Shown here: piece by piece, positions 3,670 to 57,791 of the stretch
Position numbering within the stretch: the first letter of the stretch is position 1
Layout of the letters: every line of letters starts with the position of its first letter
NCBI GenBank assembly: GCA_016186945.1
Contig: JACPKR010000022.1
Location: 26,480-90,479, forward strand
Reading direction: 5' to 3'
DNA length: 64,000 bases
From: Deltaproteobacteria bacterium
GTDB taxonomy: Bacteria > Bdellovibrionota_B > Oligoflexia > Oligoflexales > Bog-1112
Made by a program: the position numbers and the translations under genes
Notes under the pieces: generated by a model
What the model saw: the letters and a program-made list of their open reading frames with translations, nothing else
The model's database searches: none
What the model was told of the DNA's origin: nothing

Positions 3670-3848
3670 GAAAAAGAATTTGTGGAGAGGACCTTTTTTG
3701 AAAAAAAGTTCCCCTCCACTGTCATCCCGCGGCTTGACCGCGGGATCCAACGGCAGCCTTCCTCGAATAAGTTGGATCCCGCGGTCAAGCCGCGGGATGA
3801 CAGACTTGTAAAAGTTTTTCCCAAAATTGATTATCTTGAATACTATAG
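3657..3848 (+). repeat. family B element, full copy with nested GTCATCCCGCGG palindrome
   Basis: 192 bp bounded by ccatag and ctatag. It holds the ggagaggacc...ggttcccctcc-type stem, then a long inverted pair (gtcatcccgcggcttgacc / ggtcaagccgcgggatgac) around about 20 bp, then the right arm ending in attgattatcttgaatac. It separates hflK from hflC and provides the hflK stop; the hflC Shine-Dalgarno lies immediately after it. Confidence 0.9.
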
Positions 3849-23881: not shown

Positions 23882-24072
23882 CTATAGTGTTCAGGATAAT
23901 TAATTTGGGGACAAACTTTTACGAGTCTGTCATCCCGCGGCTTGACCGCGGGATCCAACTATTCGAGGAAGGCCACCGTCCGATCCCGCGGTCAAGCCGC
24001 GGGATGACAGGGGAGGGGAACTTTTTTTCAAAAAAGGTCCTCTCCACAAATTCTTTTTCCCAAATACTATAG
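23882..24072 (-). repeat. family B element, full copy with nested palindrome
   Basis: 191 bp with ctatag at both ends, reading opposite to the copy between hflK and hflC. It includes the paired gtcatcccgcggcttgaccg arms. It lies between the 3' ends of two convergent genes, where the GC-rich stem could act as a transcription barrier. Confidence 0.9.
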
Positions 24073-26489: not shown

Positions 26490-27894
26490 GTGATGCTCCT
26501 TCAGTTTTCACGCCTGTCAAGGCCCACTCACTCCCTTTAAAAAAAGACTGCCCTGCATACCAACAAATGTATGTATAGCTAAGCAAGGGAAGGACAAAGC
26601 TCAGGCGGATTCCCCATGCATCTGCCACGAACCCTTGTAACAAAGGCATAATGGCTCCTCCCACGACCGCCATGCAGAGAAAAGAGGATCCTTGGGATGT
26701 ATGTCTGCCCAGATTTTTGATAGACAAACTGAAAATGACAGGAAACATGATCGAGTTGAAAATTCCAATGATCAAAAGAAAATAGGGGCTTAAACCTTGG
26801 GACCCCAGAATCCCGAGAAGAATACAGACAGTGGCGAAAAGCCCTGATACACCCAAACAAAGTTCGGCACGGAAACGGTTCAGGAAGTACGTACCCACAA
26901 AGCGACCCGCCATGGCACCACCCCAATAAAACCCAACGTAGTAGCCTGCGTCATACGGTTCGATAGTCCATGACGAGGCGATGTAGTTCACCAGCATGCT
27001 TCCGAGACCAACTTCCGCCCCCACATAGAAAAAGATAGCCATGACCCCCCATCGAAGGTTGGCGTACCGCAGTGCATGGCCCCTGTCGATCCCTCCAGCC
27101 GTTTCTCTCTCTAAACTGGCATCTGTGAGGGAAGGTAAGGACAAGGCCCTGAGAGCAAGAATCATTGCGAACAAAAGCAGTGTGATCCCGAGATAGGGTA
27201 GGTCAGTGCTCGATTGAAAAATGGAGAATGGGGAATGAGCCGCTCCGCCAAGAACAAAATACGATCCTATCGTTGGGGCAATCGTAGTACCGAGCGAATT
27301 AAAAGCCTGAGCGAAATTTAAACGAGCAGATGCCTTCTCGGGAGGTCCCAATGCTGCTGCATACGGATTGGCCGCTATTTGGAGAAGGGTGATGCCACAA
27401 GCAAGGATAAAAAGGGAAGCGAGAAACACTTCGTAGGAATGCAGCAAGCTTGCGGGGTAGAAGGCAAAAGCCCCTATTCCTGCGATGAAAAGGCCGGTCA
27501 AGAGGCCGTTGGGATACCCGAATCGTTTCACGATGTACCCGGCGGGCAAGGAGAAGAAAAAATATGCTGAAAAGAAAGCAAACTGAACCATCATCGCACC
27601 AGCGTAATCGAGGGAAAAGATCCCCTTCAGGTGCGGGACGAGAATGTCATTTAAGCAGGTGATAAAACCCCACAGGAAGAAAAGTGCGGTGACCGAAATA
27701 AAGGCCATTTGTGGAGAGGATCTTTTTTTGAAAAAAAGTTCCCCTCCCCTGTCATCCCGCGGCTTGACCGCGGGATCGGAGGGTGGCCTTCCTCGGATAA
27801 GTTGGATCCCGCGGTCAAGCCGCGGGATGACAGACTCGTAAAAGGTTGTCCCCAAATTGATTATCTTAGACACTATAGCGAACTTCGCTTCCAA
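26479..27894 (-). CDS. FucP/GluP-type MFS sugar transporter with element-encoded N-terminus
   Basis: Proton-linked sugar:H+ symporter of the FucP/GluP branch of the major facilitator superfamily, in the inner membrane. The transporter proper starts near Met63 (MAFISVTALFFLWGF, then ITCLNDILVPHLKGIF, the family's first-helix motif) and has about 12 helices; AANPYAAALG and RLNFAQAFNSLGT are typical of the branch. No ribosome site precedes Met63 (27708). An AAGGAG with 7-nt spacing precedes a TTG at 27894, and the frame stays open through the whole family B element, giving 62 extra residues (MEAKFAIVSKIINLG... then VIPRLDRGIQ...). I favour the longer form. It is probably in an operon with ggt, ROK kinase and cyclase. 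Confidence 0.85.
   Translation of the reverse strand: MEAKFAIVSKIINLGTTFYESVIPRLDRGIQLIRGRPPSDPAVKPRDDRGGELFFKKRSSPQMAFISVTALFFLWGFITCLNDILVPHLKGIFSLDYAGAMMVQFAFFSAYFFFSLPAGYIVKRFGYPNGLLTGLFIAGIGAFAFYPASLLHSYEVFLASLFILACGITLLQIAANPYAAALGPPEKASARLNFAQAFNSLGTTIAPTIGSYFVLGGAAHSPFSIFQSSTDLPYLGITLLLFAMILALRALSLPSLTDASLERETAGGIDRGHALRYANLRWGVMAIFFYVGAEVGLGSMLVNYIASSWTIEPYDAGYYVGFYWGGAMAGRFVGTYFLNRFRAELCLGVSGLFATVCILLGILGSQGLSPYFLLIIGIFNSIMFPVIFSLSIKNLGRHTSQGSSFLCMAVVGGAIMPLLQGFVADAWGIRLSFVLPLLSYTYICWYAGQSFFKGSEWALTGVKTEGASHGN
27707..27878 (+). repeat. family B element, left end missing, nested palindrome, inside the sugar transporter ORF
   Basis: Starts abruptly at atttgtggagaggatc and ends with ctatag. 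It has the gtcatcccgcgg/ccgcgggatgac pair. Read on the minus strand it is open in frame with the transporter gene. Confidence 0.9.
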
Positions 27895-36250: not shown

Positions 36251-37717
36251 ATGCGCTTATCAAAATTTGTGCTGCTTGTCATGATCCTACATCTCGCATC
36301 GTGCAAGGAGGCGGAATCACCTGCACTGAAGCGAGAACGGATAAAAGCAAGAGTTCCCAAACAGCTTGGTCAATTGACTTGCTCGGTGAACCAACTTGCT
36401 TTGGCAGAGGAAACGTTCGATGCCGAAGACATAGTCCCCGTGCCTTTAGAAAAATTGACACTTGAGCGGTTTGTACTCACAAAAGAAACTCCCTTCCCTG
36501 GCCTGCCGTTCCTTTTCCCTCGTGTTGCCGTCCAGGTAAATGATCCAGCTGGATCTTATGGGAAACTACGCTTTCGCTCCCTGACAGACTCGTCTTTTAC
36601 GAAAGAGACCGAGGTTCCGTCGAATATTGATATGTGGGTCTACGATTTGCCTCCGGGTAGTTACGAGGTTTCGGTCCTACCGTGCAACAGCCTCGGTTGC
36701 CGTGAGGAGGGAGTCAAGAAAAGCAATCTTCTTCAGGCGTCGAATACATATCCCGAATACGAGATCTTCCAAAGCAAACTCAATGAGTGCCTGGTGATGC
36801 AGGAACGCCTTAGAAAGGCCGGATACGATGTCGTTGAGGAAGCCAAACAGATCGAAATTCTGCTCGCAGGTGTCTCTCCAGGAACTTCGGAAACAGGACA
36901 AGCAGGGGAGCCAAGCTCATGTGCGCCGGGACAGGAAGACGTAGCAGAGCACGGCCGCTCCCACATGCGCAACCTCCAACGCTGGGGAGGTGCCAACGTA
37001 GCAGCCATCCTCTCGGACCCCGATGTTTCAAAGGAGCTTGAAGAAAACGTTAAGAAGGAAAGCTCCCCTGTTAAGGAAACTAAAGAACCCGAGCAGCAGC
37101 CCACGGGAGACAGCTTTGCGAAGAAGTTTTACTTTGCCCTTGGCGTTTCTTCCCTAACGGCTGGTGCTTTGACTTTCGCCGTCTACACCTTTCGCGCCAA
37201 AGCTTGGGAGAATCTAATCGGAGGAGCACAGAGAAGCGTTGCGAATATTCAACAAGCGTTGTTCGACGCTGGGTATAACGCGGAAAAAGCAGTAGCTGCT
37301 GTGGGTCAAATGGCTCTGCCAGAACCCATGAGGGCTAGCCTGTTAAGAAATTTTGAAAATCCGGGGGTAAAGGATGCCTTCAATTCAAAGGCAGGTGGTA
37401 GAATCAAAAACCTCACGTCCCTACCACCAAATATCTCGCAGAGAGTTGTTGCTGAAGTGGATACTTTCCAGGCCTTTGAAACTCAAAGGCTCGCCAATCA
37501 GCAGAGTTTTAAACGAGGAGCCATATTAGGAGCAGCTTTCATCGCAGCCGGGGTCACCTCGCTGCTCATCTCTCATTCTCTGCCTTTGGTGACGGGGTCT
37601 GTGAATCCCCTGAATGAGGCGGAGCGCATTATAGATGAAGCCTTCCAAACGCAGCGTGCCTTCAGGAAGTGCTCCTTAGAGCTTAACAGTCTGTATCAGG
37701 CTGCTGTGAAGCTGTAA
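36251..37717 (+). CDS. hypothetical lipoprotein with two C-terminal membrane segments
   Basis: Unrecognised, 488 residues. The lipobox LASC ends the signal (Cys about 19). Residues about 85-150 have a beta-sandwich look (VAVQVNDPAGSYGKLRF, PPGSYEVSVLPCNSLGC) similar to Ig-like surface domains, with several Cys. A helical, charged stretch (about 170-280) contains NECLVMQERLRKAG and EQQPTGDS. Two hydrophobic segments follow (ALGVSSLTAGALTFAVYTF and GAILGAAFIAAGVTSLLI). A lipid anchor plus membrane helices is unusual. The TAA stop lies in the terminus of a complete family A element, so the true C-terminus may be lost. Confidence 0.6.
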   Translation: MRLSKFVLLVMILHLASCKEAESPALKRERIKARVPKQLGQLTCSVNQLALAEETFDAEDIVPVPLEKLTLERFVLTKETPFPGLPFLFPRVAVQVNDPAGSYGKLRFRSLTDSSFTKETEVPSNIDMWVYDLPPGSYEVSVLPCNSLGCREEGVKKSNLLQASNTYPEYEIFQSKLNECLVMQERLRKAGYDVVEEAKQIEILLAGVSPGTSETGQAGEPSSCAPGQEDVAEHGRSHMRNLQRWGGANVAAILSDPDVSKELEENVKKESSPVKETKEPEQQPTGDSFAKKFYFALGVSSLTAGALTFAVYTFRAKAWENLIGGAQRSVANIQQALFDAGYNAEKAVAAVGQMALPEPMRASLLRNFENPGVKDAFNSKAGGRIKNLTSLPPNISQRVVAEVDTFQAFETQRLANQQSFKRGAILGAAFIAAGVTSLLISHSLPLVTGSVNPLNEAERIIDEAFQTQRAFRKCSLELNSLYQAAVKL

Positions 37718-37882
37718 TGGGTAAGCCACTTGGGGCAAGGAGGTGGTTTGGAGGAAACTGCGCAGCTGGTTCCTCCAAGAAATGCCTTGGGGGAGCGACC
37801 CTTCGCTTTGCTCAGGGCAGGCTTTTCCCTCGCCCCCCCAAACCCCCCTCTCCCTATTTGCCCCAAGTGGCTTACGCATTAC
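37714..37882 (+). repeat. family A element, complete copy with internal expansion
   Basis: 169 bp, termini gtaatgggtaagccacttgg and ccaagtggcttacgcattac. About 22 extra bp (cttcgctttgctcagggcag) sit in the middle. Its two outer GTAA ends provide TAA stops for both flanking convergent genes: the lipoprotein (37715-37717) and pyrD (37881-37879). Confidence 0.93.
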
Positions 37883-40556: not shown

Positions 40557-41327
40557 ATGGATATAGTTAGAACACTCGATGACTGGAGCAAACGTAGATC
40601 GAAAATAAGCGAGGGGACACTGGGATTTGTGCCAAGCTTAGGAGGACTGCACGGGGGGCACGCGATGCTTCTTAGACGCTCCGTCGAAGAGAATGACAGT
40701 ACGGTGCTGAGTATCTTCCTAAACAGGACGCAGTTTAACGAAGTGCAGGATTTGCAGAACTATCCAAGTGTAGAGGCGGCTGATTTAGCAGTCGCCGAAC
40801 AGTGTGGGGTTGATGTCGTCTTTTTGCCTTCCCATGAGGACATATATCCTGACAACTATACGTTTCGTGTTGTGTCCGAACATCCTCTCAGTAAGGTGAT
40901 GGAAGGTGTGTTTCGCCCGGGACATTTTGAGGGAGTGTTGACGGTTGTCTTAAAGCTCCTCCTTATCGTGAAAGCTACCCGAGCGTACTTTGGGGAAAAG
41001 GATTATCAGCAGTTGGTCCTTGTCAGGGAAATGGCTAAGGCTTTCTTTCTCGAAACGGAGATTGTTCCATGTCCGACCGTGCGTGATGAACGAGGTCTGC
41101 CACTAAGTTCTCGGCACAATCGCCTGACGCAGGAGGAGCTTCGCATCGGTCAGGAATTTGCCGAAGTCCTTCAAACTCATCAGTTCGTGGCGGACATCGA
41201 GAGGGAGTTGGTAAAAAAAGCCATCGCTTTTGATTACGTGGAAGAAAAGGAAAACCGACTTTTTGCCGCTGCCAGGATCGGAGGGGTCAGGCTGATTGAT
41301 AACGTCCCAGCCACTTGGGGCAAATAG
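40557..41327 (+). CDS. panC: pantothenate synthetase
   Basis: Joins pantoate and beta-alanine with ATP. 256 residues from ATG 40557 after GAGAGGAA; slightly short for the family (about 280). HxGH nucleotide motif is present as LGGLHGGHAMLLRR, with FVPSLGG before it. Also FLNRTQFNEVQDLQNYP, VMEGVFRPGHFEGVLTVVLKLL, YFGEKDYQQLVLVREM and LPLSSRHNRLT. The C-terminus ARIGGVRLIDNV is canonical, but the final PATWGK and the TAG stop are encoded by a family A element. panD is absent from the window, so the beta-alanine source is unknown. Confidence 0.93.
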   Translation: MDIVRTLDDWSKRRSKISEGTLGFVPSLGGLHGGHAMLLRRSVEENDSTVLSIFLNRTQFNEVQDLQNYPSVEAADLAVAEQCGVDVVFLPSHEDIYPDNYTFRVVSEHPLSKVMEGVFRPGHFEGVLTVVLKLLLIVKATRAYFGEKDYQQLVLVREMAKAFFLETEIVPCPTVRDERGLPLSSRHNRLTQEELRIGQEFAEVLQTHQFVADIERELVKKAIAFDYVEEKENRLFAAARIGGVRLIDNVPATWGK

Positions 41328-41445
41328 GGAGAGGGGGGTTTGGGGGGGCGAGTGAAGCGTCGCCTCCCCCAAGGGATTTCTTGGAGGAAACAGCTGCGCC
41401 GTTTCCTCCAAACCACCCCCTTGCCCCCAGTGGCTTACGCATTAC
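41300..41445 (-). repeat. family A element, complete copy
   Basis: About 146 bp, reverse orientation, ending ccagtggcttacgcattac. It overlaps the panC stop at its left terminus (ccacttggggcaaatag) and ends 2 bp before the coaX ribosome site. Confidence 0.9.
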
Positions 41446-44452: not shown

Positions 44453-47400
44453 GTGTTGCTCATCTCCCACCTTTTCCCTAAACTCTTCCTCCCAAAGAAT
44501 GAGCTTTCTTCTAGCAGGTTTTCCATGCTTTCATCTTTGGGTTCAGAATCTCCTTCCCTCTTGAAATCATTTGCTTTTGCGTTTCCCAAACATTCTTCCT
44601 TTGAGCCGTTCGGTCGACGTTTGCGCAAGTCAGCCGAGCAGAGTTTAGGTATTTTGACAGGCGAGTTACTTAAATGTCCCGTTTTTGAATTTGTGAATCA
44701 TTCCTTGTCAATTGAGGAGTGCGGCTTTGTTAGAGAGGCTTTGCTTGATCCTATACTTTACGAAGTTTCCTTCACACAGATGCGGCATTCAAAGTTCCTC
44801 TCTTCAATCATGGTCTCAAAAAAGCACGGTGTGACGGACGACGAAGGTCTAACTGCCGAGAAAGTGTTCGCCGACCGTTTTTCGATTTCATCGCCACAGA
44901 TCCGTACGCATGACCTTTACCTGGTCGAAAATAGGCTGACAGAAGAGCAGTGGAGGAAACTTGCGACAACGCTTCTGGGAAATCCTCTGATTCACGACTT
45001 TTCTTTTGAAACAGCGGACGGTTTGCAGTGGGAAGCGAGAAGGGCGTTTGTCCCAACCGTTCCTCTTGGGCTGAACATTTACGCTGTGTCTCTTGATACG
45101 GATGAGGCCCTGCTGGAACTGTCTCGCACCCGACACTTTGCATTAAATCTGGAGGAGATGCGCGCCATTCGTGCATACTTCCAACGAGACGATGTGCAGC
45201 AACACAGGAAGGCGAAAGGGTTATCGCAGCCGACTGATTGCGAATGGGAAATCTTCGCACAGACCTGGTCGGAACATTGCAAGCATAAGGAATTCAACGC
45301 CGAGATTCATTTCACCGACTTAGACACGGGAGAGTCACGGACGATTGACTCACTTTTTCGGTCGAAGATTAAAAAATCTACAGACATTGTGGACCAAAGG
45401 TTCCGCGAGAAGGGCCGATCGTTTTTGGTGAAAGCCTTCAACGACAATGCGGGCATTGTCCGTCTTCCTTTTAGAGGGGAACCCAACCTTGTTTGGAAAG
45501 TTGAAACCCACAACACACCTTCGGCGCTTGATCCTTACAGTGGGGCCATCACGGGGATACTTGGAGTGAATCGAGACGCTATGGGAACGGGCGTAGGAGG
45601 GGGGCGCCTGCTCTTTAACACGAACGTTCTCTGTTTCGGCCCGCCAAGCTATGCGAGACCTCTTCAAGCGGGGCAGAAGCATCCGCGCTTTGTCGAGGAA
45701 GGTGTCGTCGCGGGAATCCGAGATGGTGGGAACAAAATGGGGGTCCCGACCGTTAACGGCTCGGTGGTCTATGATGAGCGTTACGCTGGAAAGCCTCTCG
45801 TATTTTGTGGAACGGCTGCTCTCATGCCTGCAAGGGTGGGCACACGACTGAGTTGGGAAAAACCTATACTTGCTGGTGACTGTATCGTCATGGCAGGTGG
45901 CAAAGTTGGTAAGGACGGTATCCACGGCGCCACTCTGTCCTCAACCGAAGCCCATGCGGGAACCCCTCAAACGATCGTGCAAGTTGGCAGTCCTGTGACG
46001 CAAAAGTTCCTGGCTGATTTCCTTGAAGAAGCTGTACGTCGGTCCTGGGTCAAGTGTTGTACGGACAATGGAGCGGGGGGCTTATCATCTTCCATTGGTG
46101 AACTTGCAGAGATATCGGGCGGCGCTGTCGTTCATCTTGAGACTGTCCCCCTGAAATATTCCGGCCTGGCACCGTGGGAAATTTTCCTCTCTGAATCTCA
46201 GGAACGCATGACAATTGTATGCGAAAGCAAAGACGCCGAGAATTTACGCCAACTTGCCAAAGATCGCGAGGTCGACTGTACGGTAATAGGGACGTTTACC
46301 GACACAGGCTTCCTTGATGTGCGGTTGGGAAGAGAGCAGCTAGCCTATCTGTCTCTCGACTTCCTTCACAACGGGGTCCCTCGGAAAGTTCTCGAAGCGG
46401 AAGGAAAACAAGCAATCTTGCACGAACCCGCTTTGCCCGCTTTTGAGTCTTTCAGCCCGCTTCTGCTTGCACTGCTGGGAAGTGACAATATCCGTTCACG
46501 TCGCCACATTGTGAGTCAATATGATCATGAGGTGAAAGGTAGGTCTATTGTTAAACCCCTCATGGGTTTCGACCAGAGTGCTCCCCAGGATGCGGCGGTA
46601 GTCAGACTGGACTTTGAAACGTATCATGGCCTAGCCATCTCCAACGGGATCATCCCGCGCTATGGCGATCTGGATCCTTACCATATGTCGGCAGGGTCGT
46701 TCGATGAAGCCGTCCGTCAGATCGTTTCTGTAGGAGGAAAACTTCCCGACCCCGATGATCCTACAACGTCTGTCTGGACCGTGAACGACAATTTTTGCCT
46801 TCCCAATGTGGTCTACGACCCTGAGGCCAACCCAGACGGCAAATTGAAGTTGGGCAAACTGGTGCGCATGTGTGATGCCCTCTTCGATATGGCAACGTTT
46901 TTCAATATTCCCATGACGTCGGGAAAAGACAGCATGAAAAACGATTTCGGCAGCGGGAACCAGAAAATCTCAGTTCCTCCCACTGTTCTCTATTCGATGA
47001 TTGCAAGTATAGAAGATGTCCGTCTTACGGTGACGTCTGAATGGAAGGATGCGGGCGATCTCGTTTATCTCGTCGGTCGTACGTATGACGAGTTAGGCGG
47101 CTCTGAAGTCTACAAACTGTTCAATGAGAAAGGTGCCCATGTCCCGCTCGTTCGCATGGCAGATGCGAAGCGTGTCTATCAGAAAATGAGTCGAGCAAGT
47201 TCCGCGCGACTTTTGCAATCCAGTCATGATCTCTCCGACGGAGGATTGCTTCTTGCCTTAGCGGAAGCCTCGATAGGAAGTGGAATTGGTCTCCGGTGTG
47301 AGTTACCCCAGACAGGCCTGTCACCGTTTACCTTCCTCTTTGCGGAAAGTCACTCGCGTTTTGCTGTTTCCGTAAAAAAGAGAGACAGAGACAGGTTCGT

Positions 47401-47539
47401 GTCTATTATGGGTTCCGACGCTCTTCTTTTAGGGGAACTTGAGGACGAGCCAAAATTTTGTGTCGTGCAATCGTCACAGGTTCTCGTCCATTGCACAGTC
47501 GAAGAGATGAAGCAAGCTTGGGGAGGGGAGCTATGCTAA
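44453..47539 (+). CDS. purL: phosphoribosylformylglycinamidine synthase, synthetase subunit (PurL with PurS-like N-terminus)
   Basis: Converts FGAR to FGAM with ammonia from PurQ. Up to 1028 residues from GTG 44453 (GAGGAAA upstream); ATG 44522 (after AGCAGG) is an alternative that removes 23 residues with no family match. A PurS-like domain (about 50-130, EPFGRRLRKSAEQSLGI, LLDPILYEV) precedes two PurM-like repeats. Landmarks: WEIFAQTWSEHCKHKEF, VKAFNDNAGIVRL, WKVETHNTPSALDPYSGAITGI, GVGGGRLLFN, KCCTDNGAGGLSSSIGELAE, LSESQERMT, TSGKDSMKND and LLQSSHDLSDGGLLLALAEAS. The product is the large E. coli-type PurL minus its glutaminase third, which is the separate PurQ downstream. The TAA stop lies at the start of a family A element. 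Confidence 0.93.
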   Translation: MLLISHLFPKLFLPKNELSSSRFSMLSSLGSESPSLLKSFAFAFPKHSSFEPFGRRLRKSAEQSLGILTGELLKCPVFEFVNHSLSIEECGFVREALLDPILYEVSFTQMRHSKFLSSIMVSKKHGVTDDEGLTAEKVFADRFSISSPQIRTHDLYLVENRLTEEQWRKLATTLLGNPLIHDFSFETADGLQWEARRAFVPTVPLGLNIYAVSLDTDEALLELSRTRHFALNLEEMRAIRAYFQRDDVQQHRKAKGLSQPTDCEWEIFAQTWSEHCKHKEFNAEIHFTDLDTGESRTIDSLFRSKIKKSTDIVDQRFREKGRSFLVKAFNDNAGIVRLPFRGEPNLVWKVETHNTPSALDPYSGAITGILGVNRDAMGTGVGGGRLLFNTNVLCFGPPSYARPLQAGQKHPRFVEEGVVAGIRDGGNKMGVPTVNGSVVYDERYAGKPLVFCGTAALMPARVGTRLSWEKPILAGDCIVMAGGKVGKDGIHGATLSSTEAHAGTPQTIVQVGSPVTQKFLADFLEEAVRRSWVKCCTDNGAGGLSSSIGELAEISGGAVVHLETVPLKYSGLAPWEIFLSESQERMTIVCESKDAENLRQLAKDREVDCTVIGTFTDTGFLDVRLGREQLAYLSLDFLHNGVPRKVLEAEGKQAILHEPALPAFESFSPLLLALLGSDNIRSRRHIVSQYDHEVKGRSIVKPLMGFDQSAPQDAAVVRLDFETYHGLAISNGIIPRYGDLDPYHMSAGSFDEAVRQIVSVGGKLPDPDDPTTSVWTVNDNFCLPNVVYDPEANPDGKLKLGKLVRMCDALFDMATFFNIPMTSGKDSMKNDFGSGNQKISVPPTVLYSMIASIEDVRLTVTSEWKDAGDLVYLVGRTYDELGGSEVYKLFNEKGAHVPLVRMADAKRVYQKMSRASSARLLQSSHDLSDGGLLLALAEASIGSGIGLRCELPQTGLSPFTFLFAESHSRFAVSVKKRDRDRFVSIMGSDALLLGELEDEPKFCVVQSSQVLVHCTVEEMKQAWGGELC
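47521..47530 (+). promoter_or_regulatory. ribosome binding site of purQ before the element
   Basis: gggaggggag, 2 nt before ATG 47533, giving about 5 nt from GGAGG. It sits in the last codons of purL and outside the family A element, so it is likely the original purQ initiation site. Confidence 0.6.
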
Positions 47540-48474
47540 CGCGTAAGCCGCTCGGGGCAAAAAGGGAGACGGGGTTTGCGGGGGTGAGTGAAGCGTCGCC
47601 TCCCCCAAGGGATTTCTTGGAGGAACCAGCTGCGCAGTTTCCTCCAAACCACCTCCTTGCCCCAAATGCCTTACGGGTTACCGGGTTTCCTCCAAACCAC
47701 CTCCTTGCCCCAAAGGTGCTTGTCTTGTGCGGTCTGGGTATGAACTGTGAGGAAGAAACTTATGCGGCCTACAAGTTGTGTGGTACACGCCCCCGTCTCG
47801 TTCACGTGAATGAGTGGTTTGCAGGAAAGGTGAGTCTCGATGACTTTCAACTGGTCCATTTCACGGGAGGCTTTTCCTTTGGGGACCATTTGGGGGCAGG
47901 GAAGGTTTTGGCAAATCGCATCCGCTTCAAACCCACAGCGACAGGAAAACCGCTGATCCATGAGCTGGAGGAATTTTTGGCTAGCGGAGGTTTCGTGTTC
48001 GGTGTCTGCAATGGCTTCCAAACTCTTACTGCCTTAGGACTCCTCCCTGGGATCGAAGACGGGCAAAGCGTTAGCCTGGCTCCCAATATAGACGGTAACT
48101 TTCAAGACAGGTGGGTTAGCTGCCAGATCGACCCCGAAAGCCCCCTCAGTTACCTTGGCGCTGGTGAAACTTTATCCCTCCCGATTCGTCACGGGGAAGG
48201 GCGCCTGGTTGTGAAAAATGATGCTGTTGAAACACTCATGGTCTCGAAAAAACTAATGGGGATCCGCTACCTGCACAATCCAAACGGCTCTGCGTTTAAC
48301 TGTGCAGGACTATGCAATGAAACCGGGCGCGTCGTCGGGATGATGCCGCACCCGGAAGCGTTTCTCTCACCTTTCAATCATCCTGAGTGGTCGCGCAAAG
48401 GGTCTGAAGCTCCGCGAGCCGATGGACTGTTTCTTCTCCAAAATTTAGTGAACTATGTCTCTCACAATCGTTAA
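47533..48474 (+). CDS. purQ: FGAM synthase glutaminase subunit (PurQ) with element-encoded N-terminal extension
   Basis: Supplies ammonia to PurL from glutamine. The ATG at 47533 overlaps the purL stop (ATGCTAA) and follows a strong ribosome site; the frame then runs without a stop through a family A element, giving 61 extra residues (MLTRKPLGAKRETGF..., [15 protein letters not shown], then [10 protein letters not shown]). The conserved protein begins at VLVLCGLGMNCEEETY; GTG 47716 is an alternative start but lacks a ribosome site. PurQ motifs: HFTGGFSFGDHLGAGKV, GVCNGFQTLTALG (nucleophilic Cys), HNPNGSAFNCAGLCN, MMPHPEAF (catalytic His). 313 residues in the long form, 252 in the short. Confidence 0.88.
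   Translation: MLTRKPLGAKRETGFAGVSEASPPPRDFLEEPAAQFPPNHLLAPNALRVTGFPPNHLLAPKVLVLCGLGMNCEEETYAAYKLCGTRPRLVHVNEWFAGKVSLDDFQLVHFTGGFSFGDHLGAGKVLANRIRFKPTATGKPLIHELEEFLASGGFVFGVCNGFQTLTALGLLPGIEDGQSVSLAPNIDGNFQDRWVSCQIDPESPLSYLGAGETLSLPIRHGEGRLVVKNDAVETLMVSKKLMGIRYLHNPNGSAFNCAGLCNETGRVVGMMPHPEAFLSPFNHPEWSRKGSEAPRADGLFLLQNLVNYVSHNR
47536..47715 (-). repeat. family A element, complete copy plus partial tandem copy, inside purQ
   Basis: Complete copy (47536-47681) from ctaacgcgtaagccgctcgg to gccttacgggttac, followed by a second partial core (gggtttcctccaaaccacct then ccttgccccaaag). Both parts are open in the purQ frame. Confidence 0.9.
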
Positions 48475-56097: not shown

Positions 56098-56248
56098 CTA
56101 TAGTGTTCAAGATAATCAATTTGGGGACAAACTTTTTGAAAAAAGTTATTTCCCCAACAGTATTTAAAGTTTTTTGGGGGGAGGTGTGGAGGGGAACTTT
56201 TTTTCAAAAAAGGTCCTCTCCACAAATTCTTTTTCCCAAATACTATAG
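56098..56248 (-). repeat. family B element inside the 5' end of guaA
   Basis: 151 bp between ctatag ends, carrying the C-rich/ACTTTAAA module. It is open in the guaA frame, and its first bases form the GTG start. Confidence 0.9.
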
Positions 56249-57791
56249 TCCTCATCAAAAAGGGATTCTCATCATTGACTATGGTTCGCAATACACGTTC
56301 CTGATTGCGCGAAGATTGAGGGAGCTTGGGGCCTATACGGAAATCGTTTCAAATAAGGACGCGCTGCCTTCCGGTTTTGAAGTTCAGGGATTTGTTCTCT
56401 CGGGAAGTCCACGAAGTGCGGATGGGGCGGACACTGTCCCGGCTTTCTTGTGGGAGAGTGGGAAACCTATTTTAGGGATTTGCTATGGCATGCAGCTCAT
56501 CAGCCATGCATTCGGAGGTCAGATTCGTTCGCAAGAAAAGAGAGAATATGGGAGAGCACAGCTTTCCTTAACGGAGTCCTCACCCCGGCTCGTACGGGAA
56601 CTTTTTGCAGATACACCCTCACTACAAACTGTTTGGATGAGTCATGGTGACGATGTGGAAACAGCTCCGCCGGAATTTGAAACTTACGGCGTCACGGAAT
56701 CGAAAGCAAGTGCCGTGCTCGCTCATCGCAAATTGCCGATCATTGGCTTACAGTTTCATCCGGAGGTTCATCACACGGATTGGGGAAAGACCATTCTTCA
56801 AAATTTTGCCAATCGCGTTTGTGGAATGAACCTCGATTGGACGCCCCAGGCTTTTGTGGAGGAGTTGGCTGGCAAGCTTGAAGCTACGCTAGGGCCACAG
56901 GATCGGGTCTTGCTTGCCATTTCCGGAGGAGTGGATTCGACAGTTTGCGGGGTGCTTCTGACAAAGATTCTGGGCAAGGAGCGCGTGACGTGTGTGTTCG
57001 TAGATCATGGGTTGTTGAGAAGCGGAGAGGCTGACTATGTCAGTGAAAAACTTGGAAACTTGGGTTTGAATCTGACGGTTCTTGAAAGAAGCGAGCTTTT
57101 TCTGCAAAAGATTGCTGGCGTGTCGGATGCCGAAGAGAAGCGAAAAATCATCGGACGAACATTTATAGAAGTGTTTGAAAAGTTTGCGACGGGGCGAAGC
57201 TTCACGCATTTTGCACAGGGAACGCTATATCCTGACGTCATTGAATCTTCCGGTGCTGGTTCCCAGGCAGAGGTGATCAAGAGTCATCATAATGTGGGTG
57301 GGCTGCCAGAAACGTTGAAGCTCTCGCTTTTGGAACCTTTCCGTTTTCTTTTCAAAGACGAGGTCCGACGCTTGGGGAAGGACTTGGGTCTGCCAGAATT
57401 TTTACTTAATCGCCATCCCTTTCCTGGGCCTGGCCTGGCTATAAGAATACCAGGTGAAGTTTCCAAAGAAAAAGTTTCTATATTGCAGAAAGCTGATCAG
57501 ATTTTTTCTCATGCTCTCCGTGAACATGGGTTCTACGAGAAAATCTGGCAGGCAGGTGTCGTTCTGCTGCCTGTCAAGTCTGTTGGTGTCATGGGTGACA
57601 AGAGGACGTATGAATATACCTGCGTCCTACGAGCGGTGCATGCTGCTGATGCCATGACGGCACAGGTTGGGGACTTACCTCTTTCTTTCCTTACTGGGGT
57701 TGCCGATCAGATCGTTCGTAAGGTTCCCGGGATCAATCGAGTTCTTTACGATGTGACTAGCAAACCTCCCGCAACGATCGAGTGGGAGTGA
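56103..57791 (+). CDS. guaA: GMP synthase (glutamine-hydrolysing), element-encoded N-terminus
   Basis: Aminates XMP to GMP. 562 residues from GTG 56103. The conserved protein starts only at about residue 53 (GILIIDYGSQYTFLIARRLREL); no ATG lies near it. AGGAG is 5 nt before GTG 56103, which is the element end, and the first about 49 codons (MFKIINLGTNFLKK..., TFFQKRSSPQILFPK) are element sequence. GATase: GICYGMQ with Cys127, LQFHPEVHHT. ATP pyrophosphatase: AISGGVDSTVCGVLL (about 273-287), GTLYPDVIESS, HHNVGGLPE. Dimerisation domain: HPFPGPGLAIRI, ending KPPATIEWE. A TTG at codon 12 is a weaker start. Confidence 0.92.
   Translation: MFKIINLGTNFLKKVISPTVFKVFWGEVWRGTFFQKRSSPQILFPKYYSPHQKGILIIDYGSQYTFLIARRLRELGAYTEIVSNKDALPSGFEVQGFVLSGSPRSADGADTVPAFLWESGKPILGICYGMQLISHAFGGQIRSQEKREYGRAQLSLTESSPRLVRELFADTPSLQTVWMSHGDDVETAPPEFETYGVTESKASAVLAHRKLPIIGLQFHPEVHHTDWGKTILQNFANRVCGMNLDWTPQAFVEELAGKLEATLGPQDRVLLAISGGVDSTVCGVLLTKILGKERVTCVFVDHGLLRSGEADYVSEKLGNLGLNLTVLERSELFLQKIAGVSDAEEKRKIIGRTFIEVFEKFATGRSFTHFAQGTLYPDVIESSGAGSQAEVIKSHHNVGGLPETLKLSLLEPFRFLFKDEVRRLGKDLGLPEFLLNRHPFPGPGLAIRIPGEVSKEKVSILQKADQIFSHALREHGFYEKIWQAGVVLLPVKSVGVMGDKRTYEYTCVLRAVHAADAMTAQVGDLPLSFLTGVADQIVRKVPGINRVLYDVTSKPPATIEWE

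Follow-up and report, generated by a model that had tools for sequence, protein, structure and literature searches.

A non-autonomous DNA transposon (MITE), here called family A, probably inserted at the overlap between the purL stop and the purQ start, and PurQ is probably made from position 47533 with about 58 extra disordered residues that the enzyme tolerates. The window that we analysed is a stretch of 64,000 nucleotides, positions 26480-90479 of contig C12 of a genome of 2.66 Mb (76 contigs, 91% complete), in whose assembly no 16S gene was found. The features of the purL-purQ junction are as follows, in positions of the window.

44453-47539, + strand: purL (FGAM synthase, large form; NCBIfam TIGR01736, E 4e-142, and sequence)
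47520-47530, + strand: purQ Shine-Dalgarno (SD) site GGGGAGGGGAG (sequence; anti-SD duplex -11.9 kcal/mol)
47533-48474, + strand: purQ frame with a putative element-derived leader, residues 2 to ~60 (Pfam GATase_5, translation)
47536-47681, + strand: family A MITE, 146 nt (alignment and pattern matches)
47536-47560, + strand: left terminal inverted repeat CTAACGCGTAAGCCGCTCGGGGCAA (sequence)
47570-47584, + strand: altered G-runs CGGGG TTT GCGGGGG, consensus GGGGGG TTT GGGGGGG (alignment, genome-wide patterns)
47618-47647, + strand: core hairpin TTGGAGGAA...TTTCCTCCAA (sequence; core conserved among copies)
47657-47681, + strand: right terminal inverted repeat (terminal-repeat pattern)
47685-47714, + strand: partial second copy, 30 nt, exact repeat of 47637-47666 (sequence)
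47716-47718, + strand: rival start GTG at the first conserved PurQ residue, without an SD (+2.2 kcal/mol)

The end of purL reads ...GAG CTA TGC TAA, with its stop TAA (47537-47539) within the left end of the element, and the purQ ATG occupies 47533-47535. An earlier note on this DNA had described an overlap of the two codons (ATGCTAA) behind a strong SD site, and both direct reading of the sequence and the duplex energy of -11.9 kcal/mol bear this out. The same note was also right that a complete family A element (47536-47681) and a partial second copy (47685-47714) lie in the purQ frame, which has no internal stop between 47533 and its end at 48474. The conserved PurQ sequence VLVLCGLGMN begins at 47716, where the GTG is codon 62, with a Pfam GATase_5 hit at residues 60-309 (E 1.8e-63). 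PurQ is intact over its full length, keeps its invariant residues (including C159 and H273-P274-E275) and is the single PurQ match in the genome; the frames of purL, purH and purC-purE are intact as well. In the AlphaFold prediction the leader is disordered and the core normal, with a pLDDT of 43-49 for residues 1-50 and mostly >90 for the core from residue 61.

The SD energy at ATG 47533 (-11.9 kcal/mol) was compared with that at GTG 47716 (+2.2) and at TTG 47725 (-3.9, weak), and no ATG, GTG or TTG downstream of the element at purQ had a good SD. These energies, the finding that no start after the element has a good SD, and the association of G-run indels with fusion (see below) support translation through the leader, as had been predicted.

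The junction was compared with purL-purQ junctions lacking the element, as the earlier note had suggested. The same-genus comparison rests on one relative genome, in which no copy of the family A element was found. Its purQ (54% identity) reads ATG ATA CGA GTG, giving a protein M-I-R-V-M-I-L-W that starts two codons upstream of the conserved part, and the purL stop and purQ start overlap in ATGA. A leader conserved in relatives for unrelated reasons was thought to speak against an insertion; the same-genus genome has none. In another member of the family PurQ begins ATGCTTAAGCCCCGG, and the TAA of purL again overlaps the start. Furthermore, the 45 relatives listed have their start codon a few codons upstream of the conserved PurQ strand. 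Since the same-genus purQ starts two codons before its conserved part, ~58 of the leader residues derive from an insertion, which the comparison with relatives places directly after the start codon. The previously claimed 61 element-encoded residues hold as a 61-codon leader, but the net gain, measured against the same-genus purQ, amounts to ~58, as M1 belongs to the native protein and P60-K61 may do so too. The last leader residues, P-K, fit both native starts (...KPKVLVL in L050) and the CCCCAAA of the element, so the right border of the insertion is probably ambiguous by a few bases.

The element had been described as palindromic. It is indeed a repeated element, but more exactly a MITE, as its terminal inverted repeats and target duplications indicate. 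Full copies of family A measure 143-147 bp (n = 55), mostly 144 or 146 bp, and carry 25-bp terminal inverted repeats GTAAYSCGTAAGSCAYTTGGGGCAA that start with GTAA. The terminal-repeat pattern had 153 exact matches in the genome and 0 for a reversed control. Direct repeats of 8-9 bp flank 33 of the 55 full copies, while flank shuffling gave a mean of 0.8 and a maximum of 3. A genome search with the element returned at least 45 matches, the full-length ones among the matches listed having 88-92% identity, and 462 first-look candidates. Copies were sampled in 437 kb (the window and contigs C52, C6 and C14), where 89 were found, 36 of them at least 120 bp long; by extrapolation, this corresponds to ~540 copies per genome. 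Our genome-wide evidence consists of such sampled stretches and of pattern searches, with one genome per species compared.

No partner transposase for family A was found in non-exhaustive searches for domains and ends. GTAA ends and an 8-bp duplication suggested an IS66-type origin. This candidate was rejected, as the genome has no IS66 domain and the IS66 loci of relatives are without matching ends. Likewise, IS1595 was dismissed for lack of an IS1595 DDE domain in the genome, and an IS4-type partner because only fragments without family A ends are present. Terminal repeats 1,050 bp apart on contig C16 turned out to belong to two separate MITEs around an ordinary gene rather than to an autonomous partner.

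The 122 sampled copies of families A and B (the latter described below) lie between genes or at gene ends, and none was found mid-gene with clear coding on both sides. One family A copy in the window serves as a comparison:

41299-41445, + strand: family A copy before the type III pantothenate kinase gene (element and domain matches)

The pantothenate kinase gene behind this copy keeps its own SD and ATG (41457). The terminal TAA of the element is the stop codon of several upstream genes, among them purL, where the consensus GTAA reads CTAA. GTAA ends serve as stops of neighbouring genes at 37714-37882 and 47536-47539 in the window and at C52 118187, C52 59862, C6 114545 and others, and one family A element gives TAA stop codons to the genes on both its sides.

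The purQ copy has no remaining target duplication. The simplest account of its second piece is an in-frame tandem duplication of 48 nt, from which the right terminal repeat has since been lost. The core at 47645-47660, like that of most family A copies, holds ACCTCCTT, an exact match to the anti-SD terminus of 16S rRNA, while the opposite strand of the core carries the complement AAGGAGGT; hence, either orientation of the element could affect ribosome binding.

The subtype inserted in purQ (GAGTGAAGC) has a TGA in the frame set by its left end, and a change of -1 or +2 in the G-runs removes this stop. In the purQ copy it is removed by a 1-nt deletion. A pattern search found 47 copies of the subtype, 40 with the usual run lengths (G6-TTT-G7), five at -1 and two at +2. 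The frame-changing group thus comprised eight copies: the five, the two and the purQ copy, whose broken runs have one base fewer. Seven of these eight stay in frame for 142-420 codons past the element, compared with 3 of 38 intact copies in which the same frame enters a coding ORF. Fisher's exact test gave p = 1.7e-5, and p = 2.9e-4 without the purQ and radical-SAM copies, for small groups and a test devised after these two cases had been noticed. We read the result as statistical support for selection, in particular copies, of a frame that continues into the gene behind them. The sister subfamily needs no indel to be open; of its 64 copies, 4 enter a coding ORF, with no excess over other frames. 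An open frame alone was rejected as a sign of selection, as several unfused family A copies are open too.

Pfam identified QueA, a lysine-2,3-aminomutase-like (kamA-like) enzyme, a LEA_2 protein and FlgA among the fused ORFs. The others are PurQ, a radical-SAM/SPASM maturase-like protein and an unassigned ORF in L197 that may not be a gene. An ATG behind the element offers a possible own start in the FlgA frame (-6.1 kcal/mol) and in the L197 ORF (-5.9 kcal/mol), and in the LEA_2 lipoprotein and FlgA a long leader would bury N-termini that resemble signal peptides, so initiation in the element is not implied for all seven. At C52:140473-140614 (L126), the terminal repeat reads ATGCGTAA, and the stop of the upstream gene overlaps the start of a radical-SAM maturase-like gene inside the element. 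It is rather doubtful, though conceivable, that slippage in G-runs (G6-TTT-G7) lying between a start codon and a host gene could phase-vary the fused gene on and off. The runs in purQ are broken by a C, so that purQ would then be locked on; if true, this would be a MITE spreading phase-variable translation starts.

A second repeat, family B (CTATAGTGTT...AATACTATAG), has a copy in the window directly behind AGGAG at the start of guaA:

56098-56248, + strand: family B element, which would give a GTG start (56103) and ~50 residues to guaA (sequence, start scan)
56103-57791, + strand: guaA frame, conserved GuaA from residue 55 (NCBIfam PRK00074.1)

NCBIfam PRK00074.1 matches GuaA over model positions 1-512 of 512 (E 4e-200), with model position 1 at residue 55, and the same-genus GuaA starts five codons upstream of the conserved part. 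GTG 56103 lies inside the element, and no ATG, GTG or TTG was found between the element and the conserved ILIIDYGSQYT of guaA. A start at a GTG inside the element 64 nt before its end is possible. Short of a non-standard start codon, GuaA can hardly escape carrying some residues of the element. With no common start codon between the element and the conserved sequence, guaA is arguably a cleaner case than purQ. In 44 cases a copy of either family overlaps a downstream coding frame. Most of these genes have their own start with an SD after the element; purQ and guaA belong to the remainder, which lack one. A family B element also precedes a metallopeptidase-like frame (C6:86349-88169). No ATG, GTG or TTG lies shortly after this element, and the frame is either a fusion or a decayed gene. 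In the family B copies at 3719-3803, 23927-24010 and 27749-27833, a nested hairpin TGTCATCCCGCGGCTTGACCGCGGGATCC replaces the middle part.

For purQ, we propose that a family A MITE landed where the purL stop and the purQ start overlap, so that its terminal TAA would have become the purL stop while the SD and ATG of purQ were retained in the end of purL. Small later changes in this copy, namely the 1-nt G-run deletion that removes the TGA, the 48-nt tandem duplication and the loss of a right terminal repeat, would then have turned the insert open and in frame. Hence, the leader frame is probably due to later indels rather than to the insertion alone. Ribosomes would initiate at 47533, adding the disordered residues to the N-terminus of an enzyme that would tolerate them. 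Translation of the leader, its tolerance and this order of events are inferred from the sequence.

Alternatively, the element might merely be a spacer, with PurQ starting at GTG 47716 (or TTG 47725) and the upstream frame open by chance. There are unfused family A copies whose frame is open in the phase seen at purQ, and a GTG start would lose only about three native residues when set against the same-genus PurQ. However, this GTG is without an SD and the TTG has a weak one, against the strong site at 47533. Moreover, the GTG lies ~180 nt past the purL stop, too distant for ordinary coupling, and the purQ copy has lost the TGA of its subtype by the kind of deletion that accompanies fusions. 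We therefore regard a mere spacer as unlikely. That the insertion harmed purQ or purL-purQ expression, and that the leader is translated in a decaying locus whose PurQ is poor or unneeded, appears very unlikely. The predicted mRNA fold does pair the purQ SD with CCTCCTTGCCCC of the second partial copy, but it is no better than that of shuffled sequences (z 0.15), for which reason occlusion of the SD by mRNA folding was rejected; the only PurQ and its neighbouring pur frames are, furthermore, intact. An assembly artefact at a repeat would be thinkable in a fragmented assembly with hundreds of element copies. Yet the copy-specific differences (broken G-runs, a terminal C, the 48-nt duplication) and the fact that purL and purQ are expected neighbours, in correct order and frame, make this extremely improbable.

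That MITEs can become fused in frame to host genes is established for Rickettsia, Enterobacteria, Neisseria and Coxiella (PMC2229807, PMC2759123, PMC10969869, PMC5896051). The purQ case belongs with these events and involves a newly observed element. Rickettsia palindromic elements are repeated, palindromic sequences of ~105-150 bp with an open frame, and some copies sit within genes for conserved proteins without breaking the frame (PMC2229807, PMC10969869), in agreement with the earlier note. Like them, the present elements occur in frame in protein genes, among them purQ and guaA, in every case at the 5' end. Rickettsia palindromic elements have been described in frame in many protein genes, typically mid-gene, whereas the fusions here lie at gene starts and 0 of 122 sampled copies are mid-gene; the clear terminal inverted repeats and 8-bp target duplications of family A are a further difference. 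ERIC, RU-1 and other enterobacterial MITEs have open frames fused in frame to other reading frames (Delihas 2007, PMC2759123). Family A differs from ERIC and RU-1 in sequence, judged by description, and adds fusion-linked G-run indels and element-supplied stop codons. The QMITEs of Coxiella burnetii overlap gene ends and confer residues, in places via an indel (PMC5896051); their 33-residue example is a C-terminal extension (enhC, PMC5896051), whereas the gain at purQ would be N-terminal. Correia elements (NEMIS) of Neisseria are abundant MITEs of 107-155 bp whose short form is fused in frame (PMC2229807), and by description family A resembles them as a short, abundant MITE with in-frame fusion. 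The variant features here are the restriction to gene starts and ends, the element-supplied stops and the association of fusion with G-run length.

In two other genera of the same bacterial family, G005 and G007 (loci L140, L141, L167-L173), only the core hairpin recurs, with ~100 first-look copies in each. In G007, the core hairpins often form inverted pairs at a distance of ~300-500 bp, like the two ends of a larger repeat. L164 521-1456 (G005:C69) contains ten parS-like palindromes (TGTTCCACGTGGAACA) in 1 kb.

Host proteins that incorporate mobile elements are known from few bacteria, and selection on the join has rarely been shown. The present genome provides an internal control, with ~50 near-identical copies in which a 1-nt change sets the open frame, and this frame-opening change occurs where the downstream gene has a matching frame. 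These results suggest that conserved enzymes can owe start codons, stop codons and N-terminal residues to transposons, and that the annotation of gene starts in repeat-rich genomes calls for care.
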